DNA of 12,041 bases from Spirochaetaceae bacterium (GTDB taxonomy: Bacteria > Spirochaetota > Spirochaetia > Treponematales > Breznakiellaceae). The stretch lies in the NCBI GenBank assembly GCA_031279895.1, contig JAITHR010000181.1, positions 1 to 12,041 on the forward strand. Reading direction: 5' to 3'. The position numbers and the translations under genes were made by a program. How positions within the stretch are numbered: position 1 is the stretch's first letter; every line of letters begins with the position of its first letter. Of this stretch, positions 303 to 12,014 are shown piece after piece. The notes below the pieces were generated by a model that was given only the letters and a program-made list of their open reading frames with translations, was not told where the DNA came from and searched no databases.

Positions 303-395
303 AGTCATTACTCCTTATTCATCCGTTTTCCCCATACTAAGAGGGGTACTTTAGTATACCTATACCACACCGCCCCCCTCCCCGCCCAGCCTCCG

Positions 396-541
396 CCGTC
401 TCCGACGGCTTCAGCACTGTAGTTACCGAGTGGTGCAACACCGTGTCCGGTAAGCGGGCTGGTTGCTACTCAGGCGCGGCTACGCTTCGCGCAGCCTCCG
501 GCGCCGTCTCCGACGGTTTGTGCGTTGTTATGCGCGGTAGC
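396..541 (+). repeat. Composite palindromic repeat, left flank of cassette 1 (rightward orientation)
   Basis: This is a string of short hairpin modules. CCGTCTCCGACGG (stem CCGTC/GACGG, loop TCC) occurs at 396-408 and 504-516. GGTGCAACACC followed by GTGTCC lies at 432-448. A GCGCG/CGCGC stem around a CTACGCTT-like loop follows at about 475-493. After the second hairpin comes TTTGTGCGTTGTT and GCGCGGTAGCC. The same order is found inverted at 1226-1481, on the other side of the 21-bp array. No protein is supported here. The stretch 303-395 holds only GC-rich sequence and the short motif TATACC twice. Confidence 0.85.
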
Positions 542-640
542 CGGCGGGCAATAATTCCTTTACTAATCTATACTTACTACGCCGTATTTACAGGAGTCCG
601 CCCCCTCCCCGGGGGTTATACACCGGTATTTTTGCCCCGG

Positions 641-1102
641 AAATCCGGATTTCCGTGACAGAATTCCGGATTTCCGTGATAGAAATCCGGATTTCCGCGA
701 CAGAATTCCGTATTTCCGTGATAGAAATCCGTATTTCCGTGATAGAAATCCGTATTTCCGTGATAGAAATCCGGATTTCCGTGACAGAATTCCGGATTTC
801 CGTGACAGAATTCCGGATTTCCGTGACAGAATTCCGGATTTCCGTGATAGAAATCCGGATTTCCGTGATAGAAATCCGGATTTCCGTGATAGAATTCCGG
901 ATTTCCGCGACAGAATTCCGTATTTCCAGGACGGAATTCCGGGGTTCCAGGACGGAATTCCGCCCCCCAAAAACGGAATTCCCGCCCGCCGAAACAGGAA
1001 TCCGTGTGTCCAAAACGGAACCCCCGCCTGCCGAGACAAAACCCCCGACCGCCAAGACAAAACCCCCGACTGCCAAAGCGGAAAGTGCGGTTTCTCCCAT
1101 AG
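641..1102. repeat. 21-bp tandem array 1, about 22 units
   Basis: Twenty-two consecutive units stay in exact 21-bp register from 641 to 1102. Units 1-13 are nearly identical. Units 14-22 become steadily more divergent to the right without ever leaving the 21-bp step. Two unit types alternate irregularly; they differ jointly at two linked positions (CAGAAT versus TAGAAA across the unit boundary). The centre of the second type is GAAATCCGGATTTC, a perfect 14-base palindrome. Decayed units contain the palindrome CGGAATTCCG. A very weak extra unit may precede at 620-640. Because 21 is a multiple of three, several frames on both strands are open; the plus frame from a GTG at 655 reads TEFRISV/IEIRISV repeats. 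None has a ribosome binding site or a non-repeat domain, so I annotate the stretch as a repeat and not as a gene. Confidence 0.93.
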
Positions 1103-1225
1103 AAACACCTCACCCCAAAGTGCGGAGATATGCGTCCGAAACGCGGCAAAGCGGGCGCAGACAGCTGAGGGGCGCGGGTAATCTGACGGACTGGGTGTGG
1201 GGCGCGAGGCATGAAGCTCATGGAA

Positions 1226-1481
1226 CAGCCGGAGGCTACTGCGCACAACAACGCACAAACCACCGGAGACGGCGCGAGAGCGTAGCCGCGCCTTAACAGG
1301 AAACAGTGAAGTAAATGGACAAGATGTTGCACCATTCGGAAACAACAGGCGGCCATGTTTGAAGCCGTCGGAGACGGCGCGAAGCGTAAGCCGCGCCTGG
1401 GCAGCAACCAGCCCGCTCACTGGACACGGTGTTGCACCACTCTCAAGCAACAGGCGGCCCTGCTGAAGCCGTCGGAGACGG
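1226..1481 (-). repeat. Composite palindromic repeat, right flank of cassette 1 (leftward orientation, three tandem units)
   Basis: Read on the minus strand, this contains three tandem units of about 104 bp. The hairpin CCGTCTCCGACGG lies at 1481-1469 and 1377-1365, and a variant ending in GGTGG at 1272-1260. Between them are TGGTGCAACACCGTGTCC (1439-1422, with a degenerate copy near 1334-1318) and a GGCGCG/CGCGCC stem. The innermost part reads TTTGTGCGTTGTTGTGCGC and then TAGCCTCCGGCTG (1238-1226). It is the mirror image of the block at 396-541. The leuB stop codon lies inside its outermost part. Confidence 0.85.
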
Positions 1482-2576
1482 TGGGGGGAGGAAAGAGCGG
1501 ACCGCGGCGCCCATTTCTTTTGTGCCGACCACTTTTTCCGCAGGGACGCCGGAGGCAATGTCGGGAGTTCTCAGGCCCGCGTCCAGCGCCGACGCAACCG
1601 CGGCCTCAAGGCGTGCCGCTTCGGTCTCCATGCCGAAAGAATAGCGGAGCATCAGGGCCGCCGAAAGGATGGCGCCCAAGGGGTTTGCGCGGTTGGTGCC
1701 GGCAAGGTCCGGCGCGGACCCGTGAATAGGCTCGTAGAGACCTACGGGACGCCCGTCTTTACAGGCCCCCAGACTGGCGGAGGGTAACATCCCGATAGAG
1801 CCGGTCAGCGCGGAAGCCTCGTCCGAGAGAATGTCGCCGAACAGGTTGGAGGTTACGATCACGTCAAACTGCGCCGGTGCGCGGATTAACTGCATGGCGC
1901 AGTTATCCACGTACATAAAGGACGTCTCGACAGCGGGGTACGCCCTGGCTACGGTTCCCGCCACCTCCCGCCACAAACGGGAAGTCTCAAGCACGTTCGC
2001 CTTGTCAACCACGCAGAGTTTCCGGCGGCGCCGGAGTGCCGCGTCATAGCCCGCGCGCAGCACCCGCTCAATCTCGCGGCGCGAATAGGACTCGGTGTCA
2101 AACGCCGCGTCCCCGCGCCGTCCCTGCTCCCCGAAATAGAGCCCGCCGGTGAGTTCCCGCACGATAAGAAGGTCGAACCGCGCCGCGCCGTCGGGACTGC
2201 CGGCTTTGAGAACCGCCTCCCGGAGCGGGCAGGAGCCGACAAGCTGGGGCATAAGGCACGCGGGGCGGAGGTTGGCAAACACCCCCAGGCCGGACCGCAG
2301 TTCCAGAAGCGCCCGCTCGGGCCGGCTATGCCCCGGAAGCCCGTCCCATCGGGGCCCGCCCACGGCGCCCAAAAGCACCGCGCCGGCCTCCCGCGCCGCC
2401 GCAAGGGTATCCGGGGGCAGGGGGCAGCCGGTCGCGTCAATGGCCGCGCCGCCTGCGGTAAGACGCACGAAAACGAACCTGTCCCCCAGCGCCTCAAGCG
2501 CCGCCACCGCCTCTCCCGTTACCTCCGGCCCTATCCCGTCTCCCGCGATAAGGGCGATTTTTTTCTTTTCGCTCAT
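1443..2576 (-). CDS. leuB: 3-isopropylmalate dehydrogenase
   Basis: This cytosolic enzyme of leucine synthesis oxidatively decarboxylates (2R,3S)-3-isopropylmalate with NAD+ and a divalent metal. The 377-residue protein carries the family motifs in order: GDGIGPEV (12-19), substrate arginines in [14 protein letters not shown] (92-105) and [13 protein letters not shown] (138-150, Tyr147), the catalytic lysine in VVDKANVLE (Lys192), the metal-binding aspartates in [12 protein letters not shown] (244-255, Asp248 and Asp252), and the NAD-binding loop [12 protein letters not shown] (282-293). ATG at 2576 fits the normal N-terminus; GAGA 6 bases upstream can serve as the binding site. The normal fold should end near residue 362. 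The last 15 or so residues, [14 protein letters not shown], are encoded by the palindromic repeat, so the C-terminus has been extended. The ABC gene upstream ends 26 bp before the start, which suggests cotranscription. No other leu genes are in the window. Confidence 0.95.
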
Positions 2577-2602
2577 GGTATTCTCTTTATTCTCTGTATT
2601 CT
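2577..2602 (-). repeat. Three 9-bp tandem units filling the ABC-leuB spacer
   Basis: The 26-bp spacer, read on the minus strand, is AGAATACAG, AGAATAAAG, AGAATACC: three 9-base units, the last one base short. It supplies the GAGA that probably acts as the leuB ribosome binding site. Its AT richness stands out from the GC-rich surroundings. Confidence 0.7.
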
Positions 2603-4276
2603 TTACGGTACGCCGCCCGTTGTTGTTTCCGCGAAGGCGGCGCGGAGGAGTTCCCGCGTGTAGGGTTCCCGCGGGTTTTCCATGACCCTGCGGGTGGGCC
2701 CGGCTTCCACGATTTTTCCGGCCTTCATAATGAGTATCTCATGGCAGAGCCGCCGCACCACCCGCAAGTCATGGCTTATGAAAATATACGAAAGCCCCCG
2801 GCGCTCCTGTAAATCCCGCAGGAGCCGTACCACCTGAAACTGGATTGCCCTATCGAGGCTTGAGGTCGGCTCGTCCAGCACGAGGAGCGCCGGCTCCAGC
2901 ACCAGAGCGCGGGCGATGCCGATACGCTGGCGCTGGCCACCGGAGAACTCGTGGGGATACCGGTCAAGGAACCGGTCGTCCCCCATGCCCACCTCGCGCA
3001 GGGCCGCCCGCACCCGCTCGCGGCGCTCCGGGGCCGTGCCGATCCGGTGGATGAGAAGGCCCTCGCCGACGATGTGTTCCACAGTCATGCGGGGGCTGAG
3101 GGAGCCGTAGGGGTCCTGAAAAAGTATCTGCATCCGGCGCCGCAGGGGGCGGATCTCCGCCTCCCGAAGGCCCTGGATGTTCCGCCCCTCGATAACAATC
3201 TCCCCCCGGCTCTTTTCCAGCGCCACGAGCGCCTTGCCCAGGGTGGTCTTGCCGCTCCCGCTCTCGCCCACGATGCCCAAGGTCCGGCCCCGGGGCACCG
3301 TGAAATCCACCCCGTCCACCGCGTTGATATACGAGGCCGTCCGCCGGAGTATCCCTTTTTTAAGGGGGAAGCGCACGGTAAGGCCGGCAACCCGCGCCAC
3401 TTCCCGCGTCATGCCTTCGTTCCCGCGGGTTTCCGTTTCTTCCGAACACGGCGGTTCGGCTTCCCCGTCAAAATACATGAGGGACCTGGTATACGGGTCT
3501 TGAGCGCGGGAGAATATATCCGCGGCGGTTCCGGTTTCCACAATGCGCCCGTCCCGCATGACCGCCACCCTATCCGCCACGCGGCGCACCACCGCAAGGT
3601 CGTGGGAGATAAAAAGCACGGCCATGCCCAGTTCGCGGCGCAGGGTTTGGATGAGGGTGAGTATCTGGTCCTGCACCGTTACGTCCAGGGCCGTGGTCGG
3701 TTCGTCGGCAATAAGCAGTTTCGGCTTGTTTATGAGTGCGAGGGCGATCATCACCCGCTGCCGCTCCCCGCCTGAAAGCTCGTGGGGGTACGCCGAGGCC
3801 CTCTTCGCGGGGTCCCGAATACCCACCCGCTCAAGCCACGAACAGGCGGTCTCCCGCGCTTCGGCGCGGGCCGCGGGGAGCGGGGCCGCTTTTTGGCGGA
3901 GGGTGAGGGATTCGACGAGCTGTTTTTCGATTGTATGAAGGGGGTTAAGGGACGTCATGGGCTCCTGAAATATCATGCCCGCATCCCGCCCCCGTAAGGC
4001 GCGGAGTTCCTCTTTGTCCATAGCAAGCACGTTTTTCCCTTCAAAGAGGATCTCGCCTGCGGGATAGCTGATAACCTCCTCGCTTAAAAGGCGCAGTATC
4101 CCCTGGGCGCTGACCGTCTTGCCGCTCCCGCTCTCGCCCACCAGGGCCACGGCTTCCCGCTCGCCTATGCTGAAATCAATGCCGTGTACCACCGCAGTCG
4201 CGGTAGCGCCTTTTCCAAAGGCCGCGTGGAAGTTCCGGTACTCCACCAGGGGGCGTCCCGCCCCGTTTCGGTCCAC
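2603..4276 (-). CDS. Double-ATPase ABC transporter subunit of the peptide/microcin C class (YejF-like)
   Basis: This is a 557-residue protein with two full ATP-binding cassettes that would energise an oligopeptide-type importer at the inner face of the membrane. Domain 1 has Walker A GESGSGKT (47-54), Q-loop Gln104, signature LSGGERQR (167-174), Walker B LLIADEP (187-193) and switch His225. Domain 2 has GESGSGKT (337-344), Gln387, FSGGQRQR (444-451), LLVLDEP (464-470) and His502. Each half ends with the Pro-Tyr-Thr segment (PYTRSL, PYTREL) typical of Opp/Dpp/Yej ATPases. Motif spacing and phrases such as [18 protein letters not shown] match YejF closely. The start is GTG at 4276, 3 bp after the atpC stop. 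No permease or binding-protein gene is adjacent, so its partners must lie elsewhere. All catalytic residues are present, so it should be active. Confidence 0.93.
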
Positions 4277-4279
4277 GGT

Positions 4280-4723
4280 CTAGGATTCCGGCGGCGCCGG
4301 CGGCGCGTCGGAACCTTGGTAGAGGTCCCGCGCTTTGAGCCGGAGGTCCGCCCGTCTGAGGTCGGATCGGGCGCGTTCGGCCTCGAACCGGAAACTGCTT
4401 TCCCGTATCCGCGCTTCCGCCCGCTCTTTCGCCGCCAGCGCCCGCGACCGGTCTATCTCGGCGGGCCATTCGGCGGTATTAACCATAAGCACGGTTTTAT
4501 GCGCCTTGACTTCGAGGAACCCCCCGTCAACAAACGCCTCGCGCCATAGGCCCTTTTTGTCCTTGATACGCAGAATGCAGGGGCGCGTGGGCGCGGTAAA
4601 AAACGAATGGCCCGCGTACACGCCGATTTCACCGTCAATAAGGGTAACGGTCAGGGCCTCTATCATGTCCGAGTAGAACAGCCGGTACGGGGTATGCACT
4701 TCAAAGGGATACTGGGGCGCCAC
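4280..4723 (-). CDS. atpC: F-type ATP synthase epsilon subunit
   Basis: This is the epsilon subunit of the F1 central stalk, which couples rotation to catalysis and can inhibit ATP hydrolysis. The N-terminal beta-sandwich is clear: FEVHTPYRLFYSDMIEALTV (7-26), then DGEIGVYAGHS (30-40) and the conserved VDGGFLEVKAHK (65-76). Residues 90-135 form the expected charged helical C-terminal domain. The end, SDAPPAPPES, is a short Pro/Ala tail. The length of 147 residues is slightly above the usual 130-140. The start is GTG at 4723, 6 bp after the atpD stop; AGGA lies about 9 bases upstream inside atpD. Placement directly after atpD is the usual order. The gene that follows is not an ATPase subunit. 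Confidence 0.92.
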   Translation of the reverse strand: MAPQYPFEVHTPYRLFYSDMIEALTVTLIDGEIGVYAGHSFFTAPTRPCILRIKDKKGLWREAFVDGGFLEVKAHKTVLMVNTAEWPAEIDRSRALAAKERAEARIRESSFRFEAERARSDLRRADLRLKARDLYQGSDAPPAPPES

Positions 4724-4729
4724 GCTCGG

Positions 4730-6190
<1,461 letters not shown>

Positions 6191-6206
6191 TTAAACGGCT
6201 TCCCGC

Positions 6207-6273
6207 CCGTCTCCGACGGTTCCACAGCCTCCGGCTGTTTCATAAGCGTCCCGCCACGCGCCTCACAGCCGGT
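6207..6273 (+). repeat. Palindromic modules, left flank of cassette 2 (rightward orientation)
   Basis: CCGTCTCCGACGG (6207-6219) is followed at once by a hairpin with a different stem and the same loop, CAGCCTCCGGCTG (6225-6237). Then comes TTTCATAAGCGTCC and an ACGCGCCT segment. The last part recurs at about 9681-9712 inside cassette 3. The orientation is rightward, toward the 21-bp array at 6457-7143. Confidence 0.8.
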
Positions 6274-6288
6274 CAGTCCGCTTTAGGT

Positions 6289-6344
6289 ACACGCCCCCGC
6301 GTGTCAGGGGGGAACCCCCGCGTGTTGTAGGGGAGCCCCCCTAC
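6289..6344. repeat. Cluster of three very GC-rich hairpins
   Basis: Three perfect or near-perfect stems follow each other: ACACGC-CCCC-GCGTGT (6289-6304), GGGGG-AA-CCCCC (6308-6319) and GTAGGGG/CCCCTAC around AGCC (6327-6344). CCCGCGTGT occurs twice, linking them. They lie upstream of both divergent genes and have no following T-run, so they are not classical terminators. The stretch 6345-6456 shows no gene and nothing else I can name. Confidence 0.75.
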
Positions 6345-6456
6345 GACGGAGTTACGGAATTTCAGGGCGGGGGTGCGTAAGGGTGCGGCGGCGGCGGGTA
6401 TCCCCGGGTTAGAATGATTCAGATTTGCCCCGTAAACAGACGTGGCCGCGACAAAC

Positions 6457-7143
6457 GGAAATACTCCTGTTTCGGGCGTATATCTCCCCGCTTTGGCCGG
6501 CAGCCTTCCCGCTTCGGGTGGGGAACCGCCTGCGGCATTCGGGAGGCCGAATGAAGTATTCGGGAGGCTGGCCAGAGTAAACGGAGAACCGTCTGAAGGC
6601 TGCGGGAGACCGTCCGAGGCGCGTTATGAAACAGCCGGGGGCTACGGGAGGCCGAATGAAGTATTCCTGGTCAAGAATGAAGTGTTCCTGGTCAGAAATG
6701 AGTCATTCCTGGTCAAGAATGGGTTGGAAATAGTCATGGCCGCTCTGGAAACGAACGTTTTTGCGCCGGAAACATTCGTCAGCGCTCTGGAAACGAACGT
6801 TTTTGTGTTGGAAACATTCGTCAGCGCTCTGGAAACGAATGTTTTTGTGTTGGAAACGAATGTTTTTAAGTTGGAAACGAATGTTTTTAAGTTGAAAACG
6901 AATGTTTTTAAGTTGGAAACGAATGTTTTTAAGTTGGAAACGAATGTTTTCAGGTTGGAAACGAATGTTTTTGTGTTGGAAACGAATGTTTTTAAGTTGG
7001 AAACGAATGTTTTTAAGTTGGAAACGAATGTTTTCAAGTTGGAAACGAATGTTTTCAAGTCGGAAACGAATGTTTTTAAGTTGGAAACGAACGTTTCCAG
7101 GTTGGAAACATTCGTGGCCGCTGCGGGGAGACTGCGGCTCTAA
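6457..7143. repeat. 21-bp tandem array 2, about 32 units
   Basis: Units step by exactly 21 bp from 6457 to about 7143. The left third (6457-6740) is strongly diverged but still in register, and two units there (6541 and 6646) are identical to each other. From about 6751 the units are nearly uniform, around GGAAACGAATGTTTTT. Three units, with cores at 6772-6779, 6814-6821 and 7108-7115, carry ACATTCGT where the others carry ACGAATGT: the same 8-mer inverted in place. A plus-strand frame (GTG 6442 to TAA 7143, 233 codons, LETNVFK repeats) and a minus-strand frame (NLKTFVS repeats) are both open. Neither has a ribosome binding site, and the substitutions look third-position in both, so coding is not supported. 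This is a repeat array in the divergent gap between atpD and the DUF115 gene. Confidence 0.93.
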
Positions 7144-7189
7144 GCGGGCGGAGACTGGTTTGCCGCGCTGTGCGGGACGCCGTTTAAAA

Positions 7190-7342
7190 CCGTCGGAGAC
7201 GGGCCGCGCCTAAGCAGCAACCGGACTGCTCACCGGACACGGTGTTGCACCATTAAGAAACAACAGTGTTTGAGACAGCCGGAGGCTGCGGACACGGTGT
7301 TGCACCACTAAGAAACAACAGTGCTGAAGCCGTGGGACACGG
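7190..7342 (-). repeat. Palindromic modules, right flank of cassette 2 (leftward orientation)
   Basis: On the minus strand these modules mirror the left flank. CCGTCTCCGACGG lies at 7202-7190 and CAGCCTCCGGCTG at 7288-7276. TGGTGCAACACCGTGTCC occurs at 7252-7235 and again at 7307-7290. At 7342-7330 a variant hairpin, CCGTG-TCC-CACGG, has one base pair swapped on both sides of the stem. The element stops about 40 bp before the DUF115 start. Confidence 0.85.
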
Positions 7343-7368
7343 CGGTGGTAAAAAGGGCGGCGGCGCTC

Positions 7369-7374
7369 TACAAT
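7369..7374 (+). promoter_or_regulatory. Possible -10 element very close to the DUF115 start
   Basis: TACAAT lies 6 bases before the ATG at 7381. If used, transcription would begin at or next to the start codon, giving a leaderless or nearly leaderless mRNA. I see no good -35 about 17 bases upstream, so this is weak. Confidence 0.25.
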
Positions 7375-7380
7375 GGGGGT

Positions 7381-9273
7381 ATGTGGGATAGAAACAGCGC
7401 GGTCATACAAGAGCGGTTCCCCGGGCTTCTGGAACAGATTGCCGCAAGCCCTGAGATGGACATACAGACGCCGCGGGCGGCTTCCGGGGACGTGACCCTG
7501 GTGGTTAAGGGGCTTCACGTCCATTCCCCGCGGGATCCGGCGCGGGAGGCGGCGCGGCTTGCGGAGGCCGCGTCCGGCGCGGGGCCGATCGTGGCGCTGG
7601 GATTCGGGCTGGGATACGCCGCCGAAGCAGCGGCACGAAAGGCCCGCGGCAAGCCCCTTATCATTGTCGAGCCCCACGGAGGGGTTCTTAAGAAAGCGCT
7701 GGAAGTGCGGGATTTGCGCCCCCTGCTCTCCGAGCGGGAGCTTATCTTCGTGCTTGGCGGGCCAGGGGAAGGGGTTATCGGCGCACTCCGGCACTGCGAG
7801 CGCCGGTTCCCCGGAAATCCGGCGGTTATCCGCAACCGGACCCTGATGAAACTCGATGAGGCGTGGTACGCCGAAGTGGAACGCTGCCTTGGGCTTTGGG
7901 CCGCCAAGAATACCGTCAATACCGCCACGCTGAAGCGCTTCGGCGCACGGTGGGTGCGCAACCTTGCCCGCAATCTGCCCGCTATTCGGGACGTGCCGGG
8001 GATAAACCTCCTTCGCGGCGCCGCGGGGCCGGATATTCCGGTGTTCCTTGCCGCAGCGGGCCCGTCCCTTGACCTCGTGCGGCGCTTTCTGCCGGCAATC
8101 CGCGAGCGCTGCGTGGTTCTTGCGGTGGATACGTCCCTCCGGTTCGTCCTTGAGTCCGGCGTTGACCCTGATTTTACCCTCGCGGTTGACCCGCAATACT
8201 GGAACAGCCGCCACCTTGACCGCGCCGCGGCGCCGCGCACCGCGCTCGTCGCCGAGTCCGGCGTGTACCCCGCGGTGCTGCGCCACCGGTTCTCCCGCGT
8301 TTTCCTCTGCGCCTCCCTCTTTCCGCTGGGCGCGTTCATTGAAGAGCGGCTCGAGCCCAAAGGGCGGCTCGGGGCGGGCGGATCCGTGGCAACCACCGCC
8401 TGGGATTTCGCCTGCACGCTGGGGACTTCTTCGGTGTGGATCGCGGGCCTTGACCTTAGTTTCCCCCACTATAAAACCCACTATAAGGGTGCGCTTTTCG
8501 AGACCCGCGCCCTTGCGGAATCGAACCGGCTTACCCCCCTTGAAACATGGTCGGCCAACGCGCTGCGCGGCGCCGGCCCCTTCTACGGACCCGCTGCCAA
8601 CGGCGGCGCGGTGCTTACGGACAAGCGTCTTTCGCTGTACGCCGCGTGGTTTGAAAACCGGTTTCAGTACACGCCGCATATTCGGGCGCACCGGCTTGGC
8701 GGCGAGGGGCTTGCCCTTGCGGGCGCGTCAGAATCTTCGATTGACCGCTTGCTGGCGCTTCCGGCGGCGCGGCCTGAGATAGACCGCCGGCTGGGGGCAG
8801 CGTTTGCCCTGGCGGACAGGGTGCGGTGTGCGCCGGAGAACCGCGCGCGCTATGAAGAGGCGGTGCGGGAGCTTCTTGCCGGTTTAGGGGCGTTACGGAA
8901 CTGGGCGGCTGAGGCGGCGGATCTGGCGGAAAAGGCGTACCGGCGCTGTAAAAAGGGCGGGGGGCTTTCGGACAAGGAGCGGCTTTTACGAAAACTGGAC
9001 GAGACCGACCGGCGTATTCGGGAGAGCGCGGTGAAGGATGTGGCGGGCTTTCTCTTTCCGCCGGTCGAGGAGCTGGAAGCGGCGCTTACGTCATCCGAAG
9101 CCGAGCCGCTCCGCCGGTATTTCGAGCTGTCCGCCGGTCTCTACGGCGCTTTGGCCAAAGCCGCCCGCTATAACCTATCGGTACTCTCCCCTCACCCTCC
9201 GCAGCCTCCGACGGTTTCAGCATGGCCGCAGCCTCCGGCTGTTCCAGCATGGCCGCCTGGTGTTTCAAAGTAG
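7381..9273 (+). CDS. DUF115 / MptE-like protein, motility-associated (Maf-like) glycosyltransferase family
   Basis: This 630-residue cytosolic protein belongs to the family annotated as 6-hydroxymethylpterin diphosphokinase MptE-like or motility-associated Maf-like. In several flagellated bacteria Maf proteins are tied to flagellin glycosylation. The N-terminal region (1-200) includes a Rossmann-like VALGFGLGYAAEAAA (71-85). The DUF115 core follows: VFLAAAGPSLD (221-231), LAVDTSLRFVLESGVDPDF (247-265), AVDPQYWN (268-275), and GAGGSVATTAWDFA (331-344) with IAGLDLSF (354-361). Residues from about 450 look helical and charged. I chose ATG at 7381; the frame is open back to a GTG at 7321, but that stretch is repeat. 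GGGGG lies only one base before the ATG, an unusually short spacing. The last 25-30 residues (PPQPPTVSAWP and following) are encoded by tandem palindromic modules and are probably not part of the fold. Flagellar glycosylation is inference. Confidence 0.85.
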   Translation: MWDRNSAVIQERFPGLLEQIAASPEMDIQTPRAASGDVTLVVKGLHVHSPRDPAREAARLAEAASGAGPIVALGFGLGYAAEAAARKARGKPLIIVEPHGGVLKKALEVRDLRPLLSERELIFVLGGPGEGVIGALRHCERRFPGNPAVIRNRTLMKLDEAWYAEVERCLGLWAAKNTVNTATLKRFGARWVRNLARNLPAIRDVPGINLLRGAAGPDIPVFLAAAGPSLDLVRRFLPAIRERCVVLAVDTSLRFVLESGVDPDFTLAVDPQYWNSRHLDRAAAPRTALVAESGVYPAVLRHRFSRVFLCASLFPLGAFIEERLEPKGRLGAGGSVATTAWDFACTLGTSSVWIAGLDLSFPHYKTHYKGALFETRALAESNRLTPLETWSANALRGAGPFYGPAANGGAVLTDKRLSLYAAWFENRFQYTPHIRAHRLGGEGLALAGASESSIDRLLALPAARPEIDRRLGAAFALADRVRCAPENRARYEEAVRELLAGLGALRNWAAEAADLAEKAYRRCKKGGGLSDKERLLRKLDETDRRIRESAVKDVAGFLFPPVEELEAALTSSEAEPLRRYFELSAGLYGALAKAARYNLSVLSPHPPQPPTVSAWPQPPAVPAWPPGVSK

Positions 9274-9375
9274 TGCAACACCGTGTCCAGTCAGCAATCT
9301 GATTGCTGCGTAGGCGCGGCTACGCTTCGCGCAGCCGGTCGCGGTTTGGGAGCCGTGCGTTGTTGTAACCTCCGG
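9202..9375 (+). repeat. Palindromic modules, left flank of cassette 3 (rightward orientation), partly inside the DUF115 gene
   Basis: A tandem pair about 27 bp apart (9202-9214 with stem CAGCC/GACGG, and 9229-9241 CAGCCTCCGGCTG), each followed by CAGCATGGCC, codes for the DUF115 tail. The TAG stop at 9271-9273 sits at the start of AGTGCAACACCGTGTCC (9272-9288). Then come GGCGCGGCTACGCTTCGCGC (9313-9332) and GTGCGTTGTTGTAACC. The order is the same as at 396-541. The 9202-9214 copy is a hybrid whose two arms do not pair well. Confidence 0.85.
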
Positions 9376-9391
9376 CGCTGCCGGTAAAACC

Positions 9392-9424
9392 GGTGTTTTC
9401 GGGGTGTTTTCGGGGTGTTTTTGG
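9392..9424 (+). repeat. Three 11-bp tandem units
   Basis: GGTGTTTTCGG, GGTGTTTTCGG and GGTGTTTTTGG follow each other without a gap. The sequence is strongly G/T on this strand. It lies between the left modules and the 21-bp array of cassette 3. No gene is visible here. Confidence 0.8.
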
Positions 9425-9491
9425 AGGTAAAACCGTATTATTGGCGGGGTAATCCGAATGAAAGAGGCGGCTGTTCCGACGTGCCGGCGCC

Positions 9492-9596
9492 GTAAAAGGT
9501 ATACCTTTTGTCCTGAAAGGTATACCTTTTGTCGTAAAAGGTGTACCTTTTGTCCTGAAAGGTATACCTTTTGTCGTAAAAGGTGTACCTTTTAAG
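9492..9596. repeat. 21-bp tandem array 3, five units
   Basis: Five units start at 9492, 9513, 9534, 9555 and 9576. The first is centred on AAAAGGTATACCTTTT, a perfect 16-base palindrome; the others vary at one or two places (AAAGGTATACCTTT or GGTGTACC). Units beginning GTAAAA and CTGAAA alternate. The sequence is unrelated to arrays 1 and 2, but the period is the same. Its AT-rich palindromes stand out in the GC-rich surroundings. Confidence 0.93.
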
Positions 9597-9735
9597 CCGG
9601 CCTTAAGAGGTGTGGAACCGTCTCTTATAACTTGTTATGCGGTAATAAGTAATAAACGGTGCGGCAGCCTCCGGTGGGGGCATATAAGCGTCCTGATACG
9701 CGCCTGTAAGCGGTCGTTGACAACTTTGAGCCGCT
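9597..9735. other. Intergenic remainder of cassette 3
   Basis: No gene is visible. The stretch begins with the short palindrome TTAAGCCGGCCTTAA, holds an AT-rich patch at about 9625-9655, a CAGCCTCCGGTGGGGG segment near 9665, and a copy of the ATAAGCGTCC...ACGCGCCT module (about 9681-9712) that also occurs in cassette 2. Confidence 0.6.
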
Positions 9736-9800
9736 CCGCAGGAAGCTTATGAAACCGTCGGAGACGGGCCGCAGGAAGCTTATGGAACCGTCGGAGACGG
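9736..9800 (-). repeat. Palindromic modules, right flank of cassette 3 (leftward orientation), 33-bp duplication
   Basis: Two copies of a 32-base sequence (9736-9767 and 9769-9800) differ at one base. Each ends, on the minus strand, with CCGTCTCCGACGG (9767-9755 and 9800-9788) followed by GGTTCCATAAGCTTCC or GGTTTCATAAGC. The right copy contains the stop codon and last codons of the exported-protein gene. Confidence 0.88.
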
Positions 9801-10571
9801 CTGGAGGATTCCTTCGACAACCCATTGGATAATGACCTCAAGCCGCTTCTGAATAGCCGAGGGGATGTGTATCTGGGAGGCGATAAAGTCCGATACGTCG
9901 GTTCCGGCAATGCTGTACACCAAAACCCCTTCGGCAACAGGCTCGAAATAGAGCTGGGCGATAAACTTGCCCTCTTTAATCACGGGAATAAACAGGTACG
10001 TCAGGGCCCGGAAGTTTGAAAGGCGGTAGAGCAGGCCGTACCGCGTGGCCTGCACGTCGGCGCGGTAATACGAATTGCCGAAGTTCACGTCCTTAAGCCG
10101 GATATACACCGTCTCCTCCGCCGGAGCCGCGGCGGAGGGCGGGGGATCCGGTACGGGCGCGGTCTTTTCCGCGCTTTGTATGCGCGTGGCATCCTCAAAG
10201 AGCGGCACGTCGTCGTTCCGCCGCGCCGAATGATACCGCCGCCCTTTAAGGCCGCGGATGTTTCGGAGGGCGTTGTAGATTTCGAGAAAGCCCGCGTTCC
10301 GGCTGCCTGTGGGAATGACCATCAGGGCCTCCACGAGGTACGCGGGGTCGCGCCGCGAAACCGGCCCCGCCAGGTCTATGCCCGCCGCGGGCGCCGGAAG
10401 TATCTGGAAAGTCGTGGTTTTGGCCGCGACGATTAAGCCCTCGGTCGAAAACACCCGCGCCCGCTTCGCGGGGTCAAGCCCGGGAAAGAGCGTGTCGAAA
10501 GACCGGCTCTGGCCGAAAAGACCGGAGGCCCCCGCCGAAACGAGCAGCGCCGCCGCAAGTAACTGTTTCAT
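9780..10571 (-). CDS. Exported protein of unknown function (spirochaetal family)
   Basis: A 263-residue protein begins MKQLLAAALLVSAGASGLFG, a typical signal peptide, probably cleaved after residue 20 (no lipobox cysteine), so it should act in the periplasm or outer envelope. Residues 25-130 contain LVEALMVIPTG and FLEIYNALRNIRGLKG. A low-complexity Pro/Ala linker (138-152) separates these from a C-terminal domain with IRLKDVNFGNSYYRADV (157-173) and YGLLYRLSNFRALTYL (178-193), which looks beta-rich. I believe similar proteins occur in treponemes (possibly DUF6675), but cannot confirm the family. The ATG at 10571 lies 3 bp after the stop of the sugar-phosphate transferase gene, with AAGGAG inside that gene, so the two are probably cotranslated. 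The last residues, QPSPTVP, are encoded by the palindromic repeat. A role in envelope polysaccharide work is inferred only from this neighbour. Confidence 0.75.
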   Translation of the reverse strand: MKQLLAAALLVSAGASGLFGQSRSFDTLFPGLDPAKRARVFSTEGLIVAAKTTTFQILPAPAAGIDLAGPVSRRDPAYLVEALMVIPTGSRNAGFLEIYNALRNIRGLKGRRYHSARRNDDVPLFEDATRIQSAEKTAPVPDPPPSAAAPAEETVYIRLKDVNFGNSYYRADVQATRYGLLYRLSNFRALTYLFIPVIKEGKFIAQLYFEPVAEGVLVYSIAGTDVSDFIASQIHIPSAIQKRLEVIIQWVVEGILQPSPTVP

Positions 10572-10574
10572 GTT

Positions 10575-12014
10575 TCAGTAGGCTCCTTTGCCTTTGAGAA
10601 CAACCCACACGGTTTTATACAGTACCCAGAGGTCAAGCCACACGGACCAGCTCTGGAGGTAATAACTGTCAAACGCCACCCGCTCGTTGTAGTCCGTGTC
10701 CGAACGACCGGAGACCTGCCACAAACCGGAAAGCCCGGGACGCACCGAGAAGATGCGGGAAAACTCTTCCCCGTACTTGGGCACTTCCTCGTCAACGATA
10801 GGCCGGGGGCCGATGAGACTCATCTCCCCCTTTATAATGTTGATAAGCTGCGGGAACTCGTCAAGGCTCGTCTGCCGGAGGATTTTCCCCAGTTTCGTTA
10901 CCCGCGGGTCATTCTTGATTTTGCGGTTCGCCTCCCATTCGGATCGGGCTTTCGGGTCGGAATCGAGGAGTTCCCGCAGGAGCGCGTCGGCGTTCGCGGC
11001 CATGGACCGGAACTTGTAGGCCTTGAAACGCTTCCCGTCCTTGCCGATGCGGGTGTGTCCGAACAGCGCGGGCCCGGGAGAGGTGATTTTCACCAGCGCC
11101 GCGATCGAAAGGAGGAGCGGGAGGAGCGCAAGCCCCATAATAAGGGACACGCTTACATCCATAAAGCGCTTTATCCCCAGGTTCCAGGGCATTTTCAGCT
11201 TATGGCTCGTTACGAACCCCAGTATCCCGTCGAAATCCCGCACGGACATCCATATATCCGTGAAACTGGAGGCTTCGGGGATAAGCACGTGGTAGCGGAA
11301 AGCGGACACCGAAGAGCGGAACATCTCGTTCCAGTTGTGCCGGTTGGAGAGGGTGGTAACAATGGCCATCTTGATTTGATACCGGCGCACGATCTCGGGG
11401 CCGATCATCGGGTCCCGGATGATAGGCACGCCCCGGTACGTCTCCTCGGCCCCGTCCCCGTTGTCCAGGATGAGTGCCGGCACGTAGCCGGTTTTCGCGC
11501 TGTTTACCAGCCGGTCAACCAGAAGCCTGCCGGTTTTTCCGGCGCCGAAGACCACCGCGGGTATCCCTCCCAGACGGGTTTTCACAAGGACGCGGTGCGT
11601 AACGGCCCGGCAGGTAAGCAGGATGCAGGGCGAGCAGAAGAAACTTATGATAAACGCCACGGAGATCGCGTCGAATTCGGTGTCCTCGATGAAACGGGAA
11701 AAGATGATGCCCCCGTGGGTGAGAAAGGAGCTGACTACAAAGTGGCGCAACTCTTCCGCCGGCGCGAGAAAGACCCCGGGGTAGAGGTTGCTTGCCTGAA
11801 AGATGAGGATAAAGACCGGCACATAGGGCCAGTAGGTAACGAACGATTTGAAGTTTATAAGGCGTATATCGTAGAGGTTTATGAAAAAGAACCCGGCGCC
11901 GAAGGAGAGCATACACCCGATAAGGTCCGAAATAATCATGCCTGTTGTGGTAAGGGTCGAACTGGTGCGCCGGTACCTCGACCGGTACCATACATCAAAG
12001 TCGTTGAGTGTCAT
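10575..12014 (-). CDS. WbaP-like polyprenyl-phosphate sugar-1-phosphate transferase
   Basis: This membrane enzyme would transfer a sugar-1-phosphate from a nucleotide sugar to undecaprenyl phosphate, the first step of an exopolysaccharide, capsule or O-antigen unit. The N-terminal part has about four membrane segments (roughly 24-47, 60-77, 92-108, 116-134). A Rossmann-type middle domain has AVVFGAGKTGRLL (153-165). The C-terminal bacterial sugar transferase domain begins with IKRFMDVSVSL (281-291), a re-entrant membrane helix, FKAYKFRSM (330-338), the catalytic Asp-Glu in SLDEFPQL (Asp385, Glu386), GEMSLIGPRP (396-405) and RPGLSGLWQVSGRS (425-438). The full length of 479 residues fits the WbaP/ExoY-with-Rossmann architecture. 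The sugar (galactose, glucose or other) cannot be read from the sequence. ATG at 12014 has only a weak binding site; an open frame ending in TAG at 12018 may be the tail of an upstream gene. The downstream exported protein is 3 bp away. Confidence 0.93.
   Translation of the reverse strand: MTLNDFDVWYRSRYRRTSSTLTTTGMIISDLIGCMLSFGAGFFFINLYDIRLINFKSFVTYWPYVPVFILIFQASNLYPGVFLAPAEELRHFVVSSFLTHGGIIFSRFIEDTEFDAISVAFIISFFCSPCILLTCRAVTHRVLVKTRLGGIPAVVFGAGKTGRLLVDRLVNSAKTGYVPALILDNGDGAEETYRGVPIIRDPMIGPEIVRRYQIKMAIVTTLSNRHNWNEMFRSSVSAFRYHVLIPEASSFTDIWMSVRDFDGILGFVTSHKLKMPWNLGIKRFMDVSVSLIMGLALLPLLLSIAALVKITSPGPALFGHTRIGKDGKRFKAYKFRSMAANADALLRELLDSDPKARSEWEANRKIKNDPRVTKLGKILRQTSLDEFPQLINIIKGEMSLIGPRPIVDEEVPKYGEEFSRIFSVRPGLSGLWQVSGRSDTDYNERVAFDSYYLQSWSVWLDLWVLYKTVWVVLKGKGAY

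Follow-up and report, generated by a model that had tools for sequence, protein, structure and literature searches.

The described system nearest to the elements reported here is BrickBuilt of Porphyromonas gingivalis, a miniature inverted-repeat transposable element (MITE) with a 23-nt minisatellite core (PMC4596501). Next come the REPINs, inverted pairs of repetitive extragenic palindromic (REP) hairpins, and the bacterial interspersed mosaic elements (BIMEs). We examined an entire 12,041-bp contig of a Spirochaetaceae bacterium (C208, hereafter the window). An earlier note on it, made from the letters alone, described three intergenic cassettes with inward-facing hairpin modules around a 21-bp tandem array, and proposed an undescribed composite element family. 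We find that these are probably lineage-specific, very high-copy, non-autonomous palindromic elements, REPIN- or MITE-like in form, with an optional 21-bp palindromic minisatellite core. With BrickBuilt on record, a related kind is already known (PMC4596501); what is new is the scale (10.9% of unselected bases), together with the modular, inverted build of the ends and a plan that persists even as its cores change.

BrickBuilt shares with these elements an intergenic position, the lack of coding sequence, inverted-repeat ends, and a central array of about two helix turns per unit with variable copy number (PMC4596501). It differs in having 19 copies in ATCC 33277 against hundreds here, a distinct leader and tail where we see inverted copies of one module, and one array sequence where our cores vary (PMC4596501). 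The part of that paper used here also describes no leader-to-tail form lacking the full repeat, whereas array-less forms dominate here, and its short terminal inverted repeats (TIRs) match IS5-family elements, whereas here the period is 21 and the ends, CCGTCTCCGACGG and CAGCCTCCGGCTG, differ from those TIRs (PMC4596501). BIMEs are likewise mosaic REP clusters in both orientations with tandem runs, but their REPs alternate along the cluster, while ours sort inwards around it and enclose a periodic array (PMC2817692, with general background). The GTAG/CGTC-tagged REPs are also small GC-rich hairpins in high copy; CGTC lies inside one hairpin form here, but the second form (CAGCC/GGCTG) lacks it (PMC3733652). 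REPINs resemble our elements in being inverted pairs of REP-type hairpins with a spacer (most often 71 or 110 bp), extragenic and in hundreds of copies, although the spacer here can be a 21-bp array, and REPIN arms show compensatory changes that the arms of our unit S (below) do not (PMC3116915). The genome has both inverted hairpin pairs and a gene resembling the REP-associated tyrosine transposase (RAYT), but no REPs flank that gene. As arm compensation and REPs beside the RAYT gene are both absent, we do not file the elements as REPINs. Further afield, eukaryotic foldback and MITE or Helentron elements combine inverted ends with a satellite-like core of central tandem repeats; ours differ in their bacterial host, hairpin ends and enzymes. 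Among the matches listed, the open-licence literature held no account of such elements in treponemes, and a paper on termite-gut Breznakiellaceae (PMC13067680) lacks the words "palindrom", "intergenic", "transposase" and "mobile" (a word search only).

In the window, the module positions proposed beforehand were borne out within 1-2 bp, and exact searches reproduced the inward-pointing orientation of every named module. CCGTCTCCGACGG occurs exactly at 396, 504 and 6207 on the plus strand and at 1365, 1469, 7190, 9755 and 9788 on the minus strand. GTGCAACACCGTGTCC lies at 433 and 9273 on the plus strand (starts previously given as 431 and 9272) and at 1422, 7235 and 7290 on the minus strand; both motifs average 0.00 occurrences in 200 shuffles. 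CAGCCTCCGGCTG is found at 6225 and 9229 (plus) and 7276 (minus), with a one-mismatch copy at 1226 (minus), against a shuffle mean of 0.04. Tandem Repeats Finder confirmed an array of period 21 or 42 in each cassette. The motifs are thus real, but the repeated units are larger than first described: an oriented unit of about 125 bp (E) and a 101-bp near-palindrome (S).

To place these units in their genome (G000; 1.88 Mb in 292 contigs, 74.7% complete), we sampled 62 of its contigs (419,013 bp), 40 of them unselected; G005 is a sister species, and other G numbers are relatives in the genus or family. An exact 13-mer occurs 317 times forward and 307 times in reverse in the whole genome (624 copies), compared with 0-3 times in each of 57 relatives. 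It is present in 12 of the 58 genomes, own included, and the other 11 hold 1-3 copies, like the reversed control pattern. An iterated profile gave 137 matches to E, counting partial ones, and these often form same-orientation tandem runs. S was defined by facing pairs of small hairpins, and its consensus (15 copies) folds end to end; its 219 matches comprise 58 full, 65 left, 90 right and 6 middle copies. The terminal hairpins take two fully compensated forms, with 171 and 139 of 435 loose-pattern matches. Together, modules and arrays occupy 10.9% of bases in the 40 unselected contigs. Modules also occur in tandem themselves, at L040 4626-4961 (periods 68/137), L049 2574-2777 (47/95) and L048 9918-10287 (27/144).

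Recording orientation in the sampled contigs, as the earlier note had suggested for the whole genome, showed that the ends sort inwards. With tandem runs collapsed, modules less than 150 bp apart point towards each other in 45 cases and away from each other in 5 (27 vs 1 in the unselected contigs), while 38 of 57 pairs more than 1 kb apart face away, as expected across genes. Facing gaps below 400 bp measure 63-106 bp in 37 of 57 cases. There are 70 inward neighbour pairs within 1.5 kb, of which 54 are short (<300 bp) and array-less and 2 are short with an array, while 13 of the 14 long ones hold an array with a period that is a multiple of 21 and one does not. Since most inverted pairs are short and empty, the array is an optional core. 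The proposed family with an interchangeable periodic centre survives in its REPIN- or MITE-like form, its inward ends and, as shown below, its plan in the sister species, but the centre is mostly absent. The elements thus share inward small-hairpin ends and take the form of S, of E (often tandem), or of long composites with a central 21-bp palindromic array; terminal inverted repeats, absence of coding capacity and dispersed copies are features they have in common with MITEs.

The sample contained 58 period-21 arrays, of which two derive from modules and were left out. Of the remaining 56, 52 have a directed module within 500 bp. On the left of the arrays, the nearest such module points right in 30 cases and left in 9, with a contig end in 10 and no module in 7; on the right, it points left in 28 and right in 7, with 9 contig ends and 12 without a module. 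Inward modules thus make up 58 of 74 (5e-7 in a one-sided sign test that makes no correction for neighbouring modules). This count supersedes a cruder one that included module-derived arrays (left 75:28, right 21:89). Where both sides carry directed modules (n=22), 12 arrays are bracketed inwards, 5 and 4 have both modules in the same direction and 1 is bracketed outwards. Neither side has a directed module in four arrays, two of which lie within 300 bp of a contig end; the other two (L134 3996 and L038 13195) are putative coding repeats. Repeats of period 21/84/117 stand at aligned places in both species (L134 3996-4526 and L187 5760-6332), without modules in the G000 copy, and perhaps encode a coiled coil. 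In the two unselected contig sets, 3.45% and 3.52% of the sequence belongs to arrays whose period is 21 or a multiple of it.

The cores differ between loci. By single linkage at 16/21 matches, 115 array rows from G000 and G005 fall into 42 unit families, 26 of them on a single contig; among the 16 multi-contig families, one, GC-rich, is common to both species. The core AAAACATYRATGTTTT was found in the own genome only, among 39 searched. The array sequences of the three cassettes had been called unrelated, which is correct for cassette 3, while the units of cassettes 1 and 2 are linked into one family by intermediate units found elsewhere.

The sister species (leuB 79% and the MptE-like gene 78% identical to the window) has 23 arrays in 161 kb, 10 of them with enough flank for comparison. 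Aligning each left flank with the reverse complement of the right gave scores of at least 54 in 7 of 10 and at least 60 in 5 of 10, against 1 of 10 for direct comparison. Between loci, inverted flanks reached at least 60 in 41 of 60 comparisons and direct flanks in 6 of 60, although the arrays differ. The inverted flank is unlike those of G000 and is shared between loci with different arrays. The CAGCCTCCGGCTG hairpin has 26 copies in this sample and the other hairpin form only 3. These comparisons support the same plan in G005, with what appear to be different ends and different cores.

At some orthologous sites just one of the two sister species has an element. G005 lacks the cassette at L159 2650-4200 (E units, an array and left-facing modules; gap of 1567 vs 323 bp), and its counterpart of a 301-bp gap with S-like elements at L044 measures 99 bp. 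The S element at L134 5844-5945 starts directly after the stop codon of a conserved gene that ends in GVMLKW in both species; G005 lacks it, and its spacer is of similar length (205 vs 199 bp) but other sequence. The elements are dispersed, lie near gene ends and can abut a stop codon. At leuB, the atpC-opp-leuB stretch of the window is collinear with G005 contig C84, and homology stops at the leuB 3' end (1508) although the G005 contig continues; there (L286 2990-3885) G005 has a CAGCCTCCGGCTG hairpin, inverted flanks of about 200 bp and two arrays unlike those of cassette 1. Homology of the MptE-like gene likewise stops at 7356, beside cassette 2, though the contig continues; the end at 9182 is the end of the G005 contig and is uninformative on cassette 3. 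No such element follows leuB in G001, G002 or G003, where the next gene overlaps by 4 bp (G002) or lies 31 bp (G001) or 50 bp (G003) away; G004 has another spacer. The 50-bp spacer of G003 (L281) contains a small GCCTCCGGC hairpin with a TCC loop as in the G000 modules. These comparisons show lineage-specific presence and not an enzyme. Gaps at orthologous places, proposed beforehand as a check, were thus found at some sites, while the leuB site is not a clean one. In G001-G003 leuB is followed by gene X; in G000 this gene sits on a 3.7-kb stretch that has no modules, so the cassettes do not mark every rearrangement.

Such site comparisons also bear on whether the cassettes or their neighbours are partly artefacts of assembling repeats in a fragmented metagenome-assembled genome. 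With 292 contigs, and at least 19 of the 56 arrays within 300 bp of a contig end, this deserves consideration, but the elements recur in many contigs and in a second assembly, and gene homology between the two assemblies reaches the element borders at several sites; we regard artefacts as very improbable.

How might such elements spread? A trans-acting enzyme would recognise the terminal hairpins, probably in single-stranded form (HUH/Y1 type), and copy the unit between the inverted ends. Slippage or unequal exchange would let the array grow in the middle of the inverted repeat. A non-palindromic centre renders a long inverted repeat tolerable to the cell. Because the ends are shared, recombination could swap cores from one locus to another. 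Most probably the elements are selfish and affect gene ends and transcription as a side effect.

Several observations weigh against reading the elements as mobile units with an optional core. No mobilising enzyme has been shown, PF01797 being the only transposase family searched. This domain (Y1_Tnp) has one gene each in G000 and G005, and 0-22 in 27 other genomes; relatives G001, G013, G004, G003 and G016 have 8-22 matches. The only RAYT-like gene found in G000 lies outside the window, in line with the earlier statement that the window holds no mobilising enzyme, at 7442-8032 of contig C185 (L199). We ruled it out as a neighbour of the modules, the nearest of which lies at 11351, 3.3 kb off on that contig. 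Its protein keeps the HIH motif but is two residues short, one of them a Tyr that G005, G001 and G008 all have (four-protein alignment), presumably the catalytic one. As the genome is about 75% complete, another RAYT copy may exist. No target-site duplication was seen by eye in the orthologous pairs, for which the sister sequences are highly diverged and no systematic test was made, and the leuB site is not cleanly empty because its far-side gene differs between genomes. At the arrays, 16 of the 74 nearest modules point outwards. A test of the G000 array flanks that used no module models found 8 of 38 inverted and 5 of 38 direct at score 60, and the orientation signal in G000 comes from the module models. 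Paired cells make up 77.4% in the S arms against 78.6% in shuffles (51 of the 58 full copies aligned), so the whole hairpin is not kept by compensatory change, which is confined to the terminal hairpins. Finally, all five arrays with enough flank in G001, G003 and G008 lack inverted flanks. The earlier note had held that arrays commonly without modules would speak against it; they are so in these relatives, though not as a rule in G000.

These last points raise the alternative that two independent classes meet in one intergenic space: 21-bp minisatellites of long standing in the clade, and REP-like palindromes inserting next to and around them in the manner of BIMEs, with inward sorting due to the palindromes' own paired structure rather than to a joint unit. 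Beyond the sister pair period-21 arrays are sparse: with four contigs searched in each genome, G001 and G003 have them and G002 and G004 do not. Among 19 other genera of the family, at one contig each, only G008 and G010 have any, and no array lies in two 12-kb stretches of G032. The bare flanks in the relatives, the weak flank test in G000, the mosaic arms without covariation, the predominance of short array-less pairs and the occurrence of one array family beside different modules all fit this alternative. It accounts less well for single arrays with half-S arms on both sides (e.g. L036 3764 and L038 2743, and likewise cassette 2), for the shared inverted flanks of G005, and for parts of composites that recur together: the left shoulder of cassette 1 recurs on contigs that carry arrays of the cassette 1 family (L034, L049, L132, L134 and L141, among the matches listed), and one long composite is copied with its array order preserved, 6654-6941 of cassette 2 matching contig C185 on the opposite strand. 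We think the two-class explanation rather unlikely. The mobile-unit reading can also be taken a step further, to a chassis whose conserved inward hairpin ends hold a slot for 21-bp-phased palindromic arrays that are grown, exchanged and kept palindromic, and that differ between loci and species; we put this forward only tentatively, as a possibility. If it is true, a class that accounts for roughly one tenth of the sampled genome remodels intergenic space in a treponeme lineage.

The array units themselves are palindromic beyond shuffles, with an arm score of 4.88 vs 3.24 in G000 (35 of 48 above their own mean) and 4.63 vs 3.49 in G005 (17 of 19); in other genomes this holds for 2 of 4. Variation between units spares the palindrome arms in G000, at 0.059 vs 0.126 per unit-position (a share of 0.41 against a null of 0.58; random rotation, P 0.0002; 33 of 48 arrays, namely those with clear arms and four or more variants), and in G005, at 0.062 vs 0.105 (P 0.026; 12 of 19 arrays). 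A period of 21 bp is two helix turns. Perhaps, then, the arrays serve the host as a structured RNA or a DNA-binding platform (a transcription boundary, operator or nucleoid array), with selection keeping the palindrome and the 21-bp phase. The spared arms and compensated terminal hairpins speak for this explanation, but hairpin-templated correction could also maintain perfect arms, the cores differ between loci and, one family excepted, between species, the element is missing at some orthologous sites, and Rfam has no match in the window at the gathering threshold. A host function of this kind seems improbable.

As 21 bp is also seven codons, the arrays could encode heptapeptide-repeat proteins, and long open frames do run through them (e.g. 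655-1296 and 6442-7143, both on the plus strand). However, on average 4.8 of the 6 frames are open anyway, and variation is not concentrated by codon position (0.496 vs 0.539 shuffled in 42 G000 arrays; 0.531 vs 0.541 in 12 G005 arrays). Lacking that signature, coding arrays were ruled out, and we hold them to be extremely improbable.

Bacterial genomes are described as poor in repeats (PMC8049555); here one family takes 10.9% of an unselected sample. Because the sister species has the same plan with other ends and cores, one can ask how REP- or MITE-like elements acquire and swap minisatellite cores, and also how palindrome arms stay intact while linkers drift. As many arrays stand at contig ends, the elements may explain the poor assembly of this genome. 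They also reach into genes: the cassettes had been called intergenic, but not strictly so, since three open frames end inside them, leuB (1443-2576, minus) in cassette 1 and the MptE-like gene (7321-9273, plus) and DUF6675 (9780-10571, minus) in cassette 3.

Cassette 1 (390-1487) lies between the leuB 3' end and a minus-strand gene running left from about 240. It opens with an E unit on the plus strand bearing hairpin CCGTCTCCGACGG (396-503), followed by a second hairpin (504-516) and a dispersed left shoulder (518-639, plus; 9 matches in the own sample). The period-21 array (640-962, plus) has 15.4 copies of the unit GAATTCCGGATTTCCGTGACA, many containing the palindromic GAAATCCGGATTTC, and a further period-21 stretch lies at 1019-1076. 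On the minus strand follow a right shoulder (1128-1239), which includes a right S arm and, at 1226, the hairpin variant, and two tandem E units of period 105 (1254-1481) with hairpins at their 1365 and 1469 ends, the last of which reaches into the leuB frame at its 3' end. No second match to the right flank (1487-1560) occurs in the own sample.

Cassette 2 (6205-7342), between the 5' sides of atpD and the MptE-like gene, starts with hairpins at 6207 and 6225 and a left S arm (6207-6286, plus). Its period-21 units span 6294-7110: an extra detection at 6294-6340, GAATGAAGTATTCCTGGTCAA at 6654-6721 and TGGAAACGAATGTTTTTAAGT at 6746-7110, the latter two of 21/42 bp; a motif at 6543 returns at 6648, 5 x 21 bp on. 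A right S arm (7133-7202, minus) ends in the hairpin 7190-7202, and an E unit (7183-7286) and a partial E (7289-7337) close the cassette on the minus strand (7183-7337). Its flanks (6125-6206 and 7343-7400) have no second match in the own sample. A second copy of this type, with several array families in one cassette, stands at L199 15218-16600 on the opposite strand. We considered cassette 2 as a breakpoint of the atp operon and rejected this, as atpG is also absent upstream of atpD in the flanks of G001, G003 and G004 (L228, L229 and L230); other family members (L231-L234) differ.

Cassette 3 (9199-9803), with outer borders defined by modules only, overlaps the 3' ends of the MptE-like and DUF6675 frames. 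Its left part (9202-9354, plus) consists of an incompletely pairing hybrid hairpin CAGCCTCCGACGG at 9202, the hairpin CAGCCTCCGGCTG at 9229 and an E unit (9231-9354). The array of period 21/42 (9491-9593, plus) has the core AAAAGGTATACCTTTT with alternating linkers, and on the right (9665-9800, minus) stand a full S palindrome (9665-9767) and an extra hairpin copy (9788-9800). Overall, three of the six outer cassette flanks were checked and all three are unique in the own sample, while the shoulders are dispersed, with 9, 57, 13, 33, 1 and 84 matches.

Folded as DNA, the cassettes reach energies of -313.6, -256.0 and -134.8; 10 two-mer shuffles of each average -182.5, -177.7 and -94.7. A long imperfect stem between the flanks, suggested for all of them, is predicted for cassette 1, with 145 left-right pairs (390-549 with 1228-1487); cassettes 2 and 3 give only 17 and 34.

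A 166-bp right-hand unit had a close relative in the own genome only, among 55 genomes searched; in G005, where 15 of 127 first-look candidates were scored, weaker kin may exist. A phage or virus origin of the modules was considered and set aside, as one 18-mer has no exact match in viral contigs and a 168-bp unit none in phage records.

The window encodes leuB, an oligopeptide ABC ATPase, atpC, atpD, the MptE-like protein (PF01973), DUF6675 and a sugar transferase. The nearest named match of its atpD is Treponema sp. Gx481_bin162 (83%), and we assume that such genomes, and this treponeme lineage, come from termite guts. The LeuB frame runs into the element and ends there (1443-1500); its tail is missing in five relatives, whose alignments stop at residue 359-363 of 377. 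The MptE-like frame likewise runs into an element and ends within it (9199-9273).

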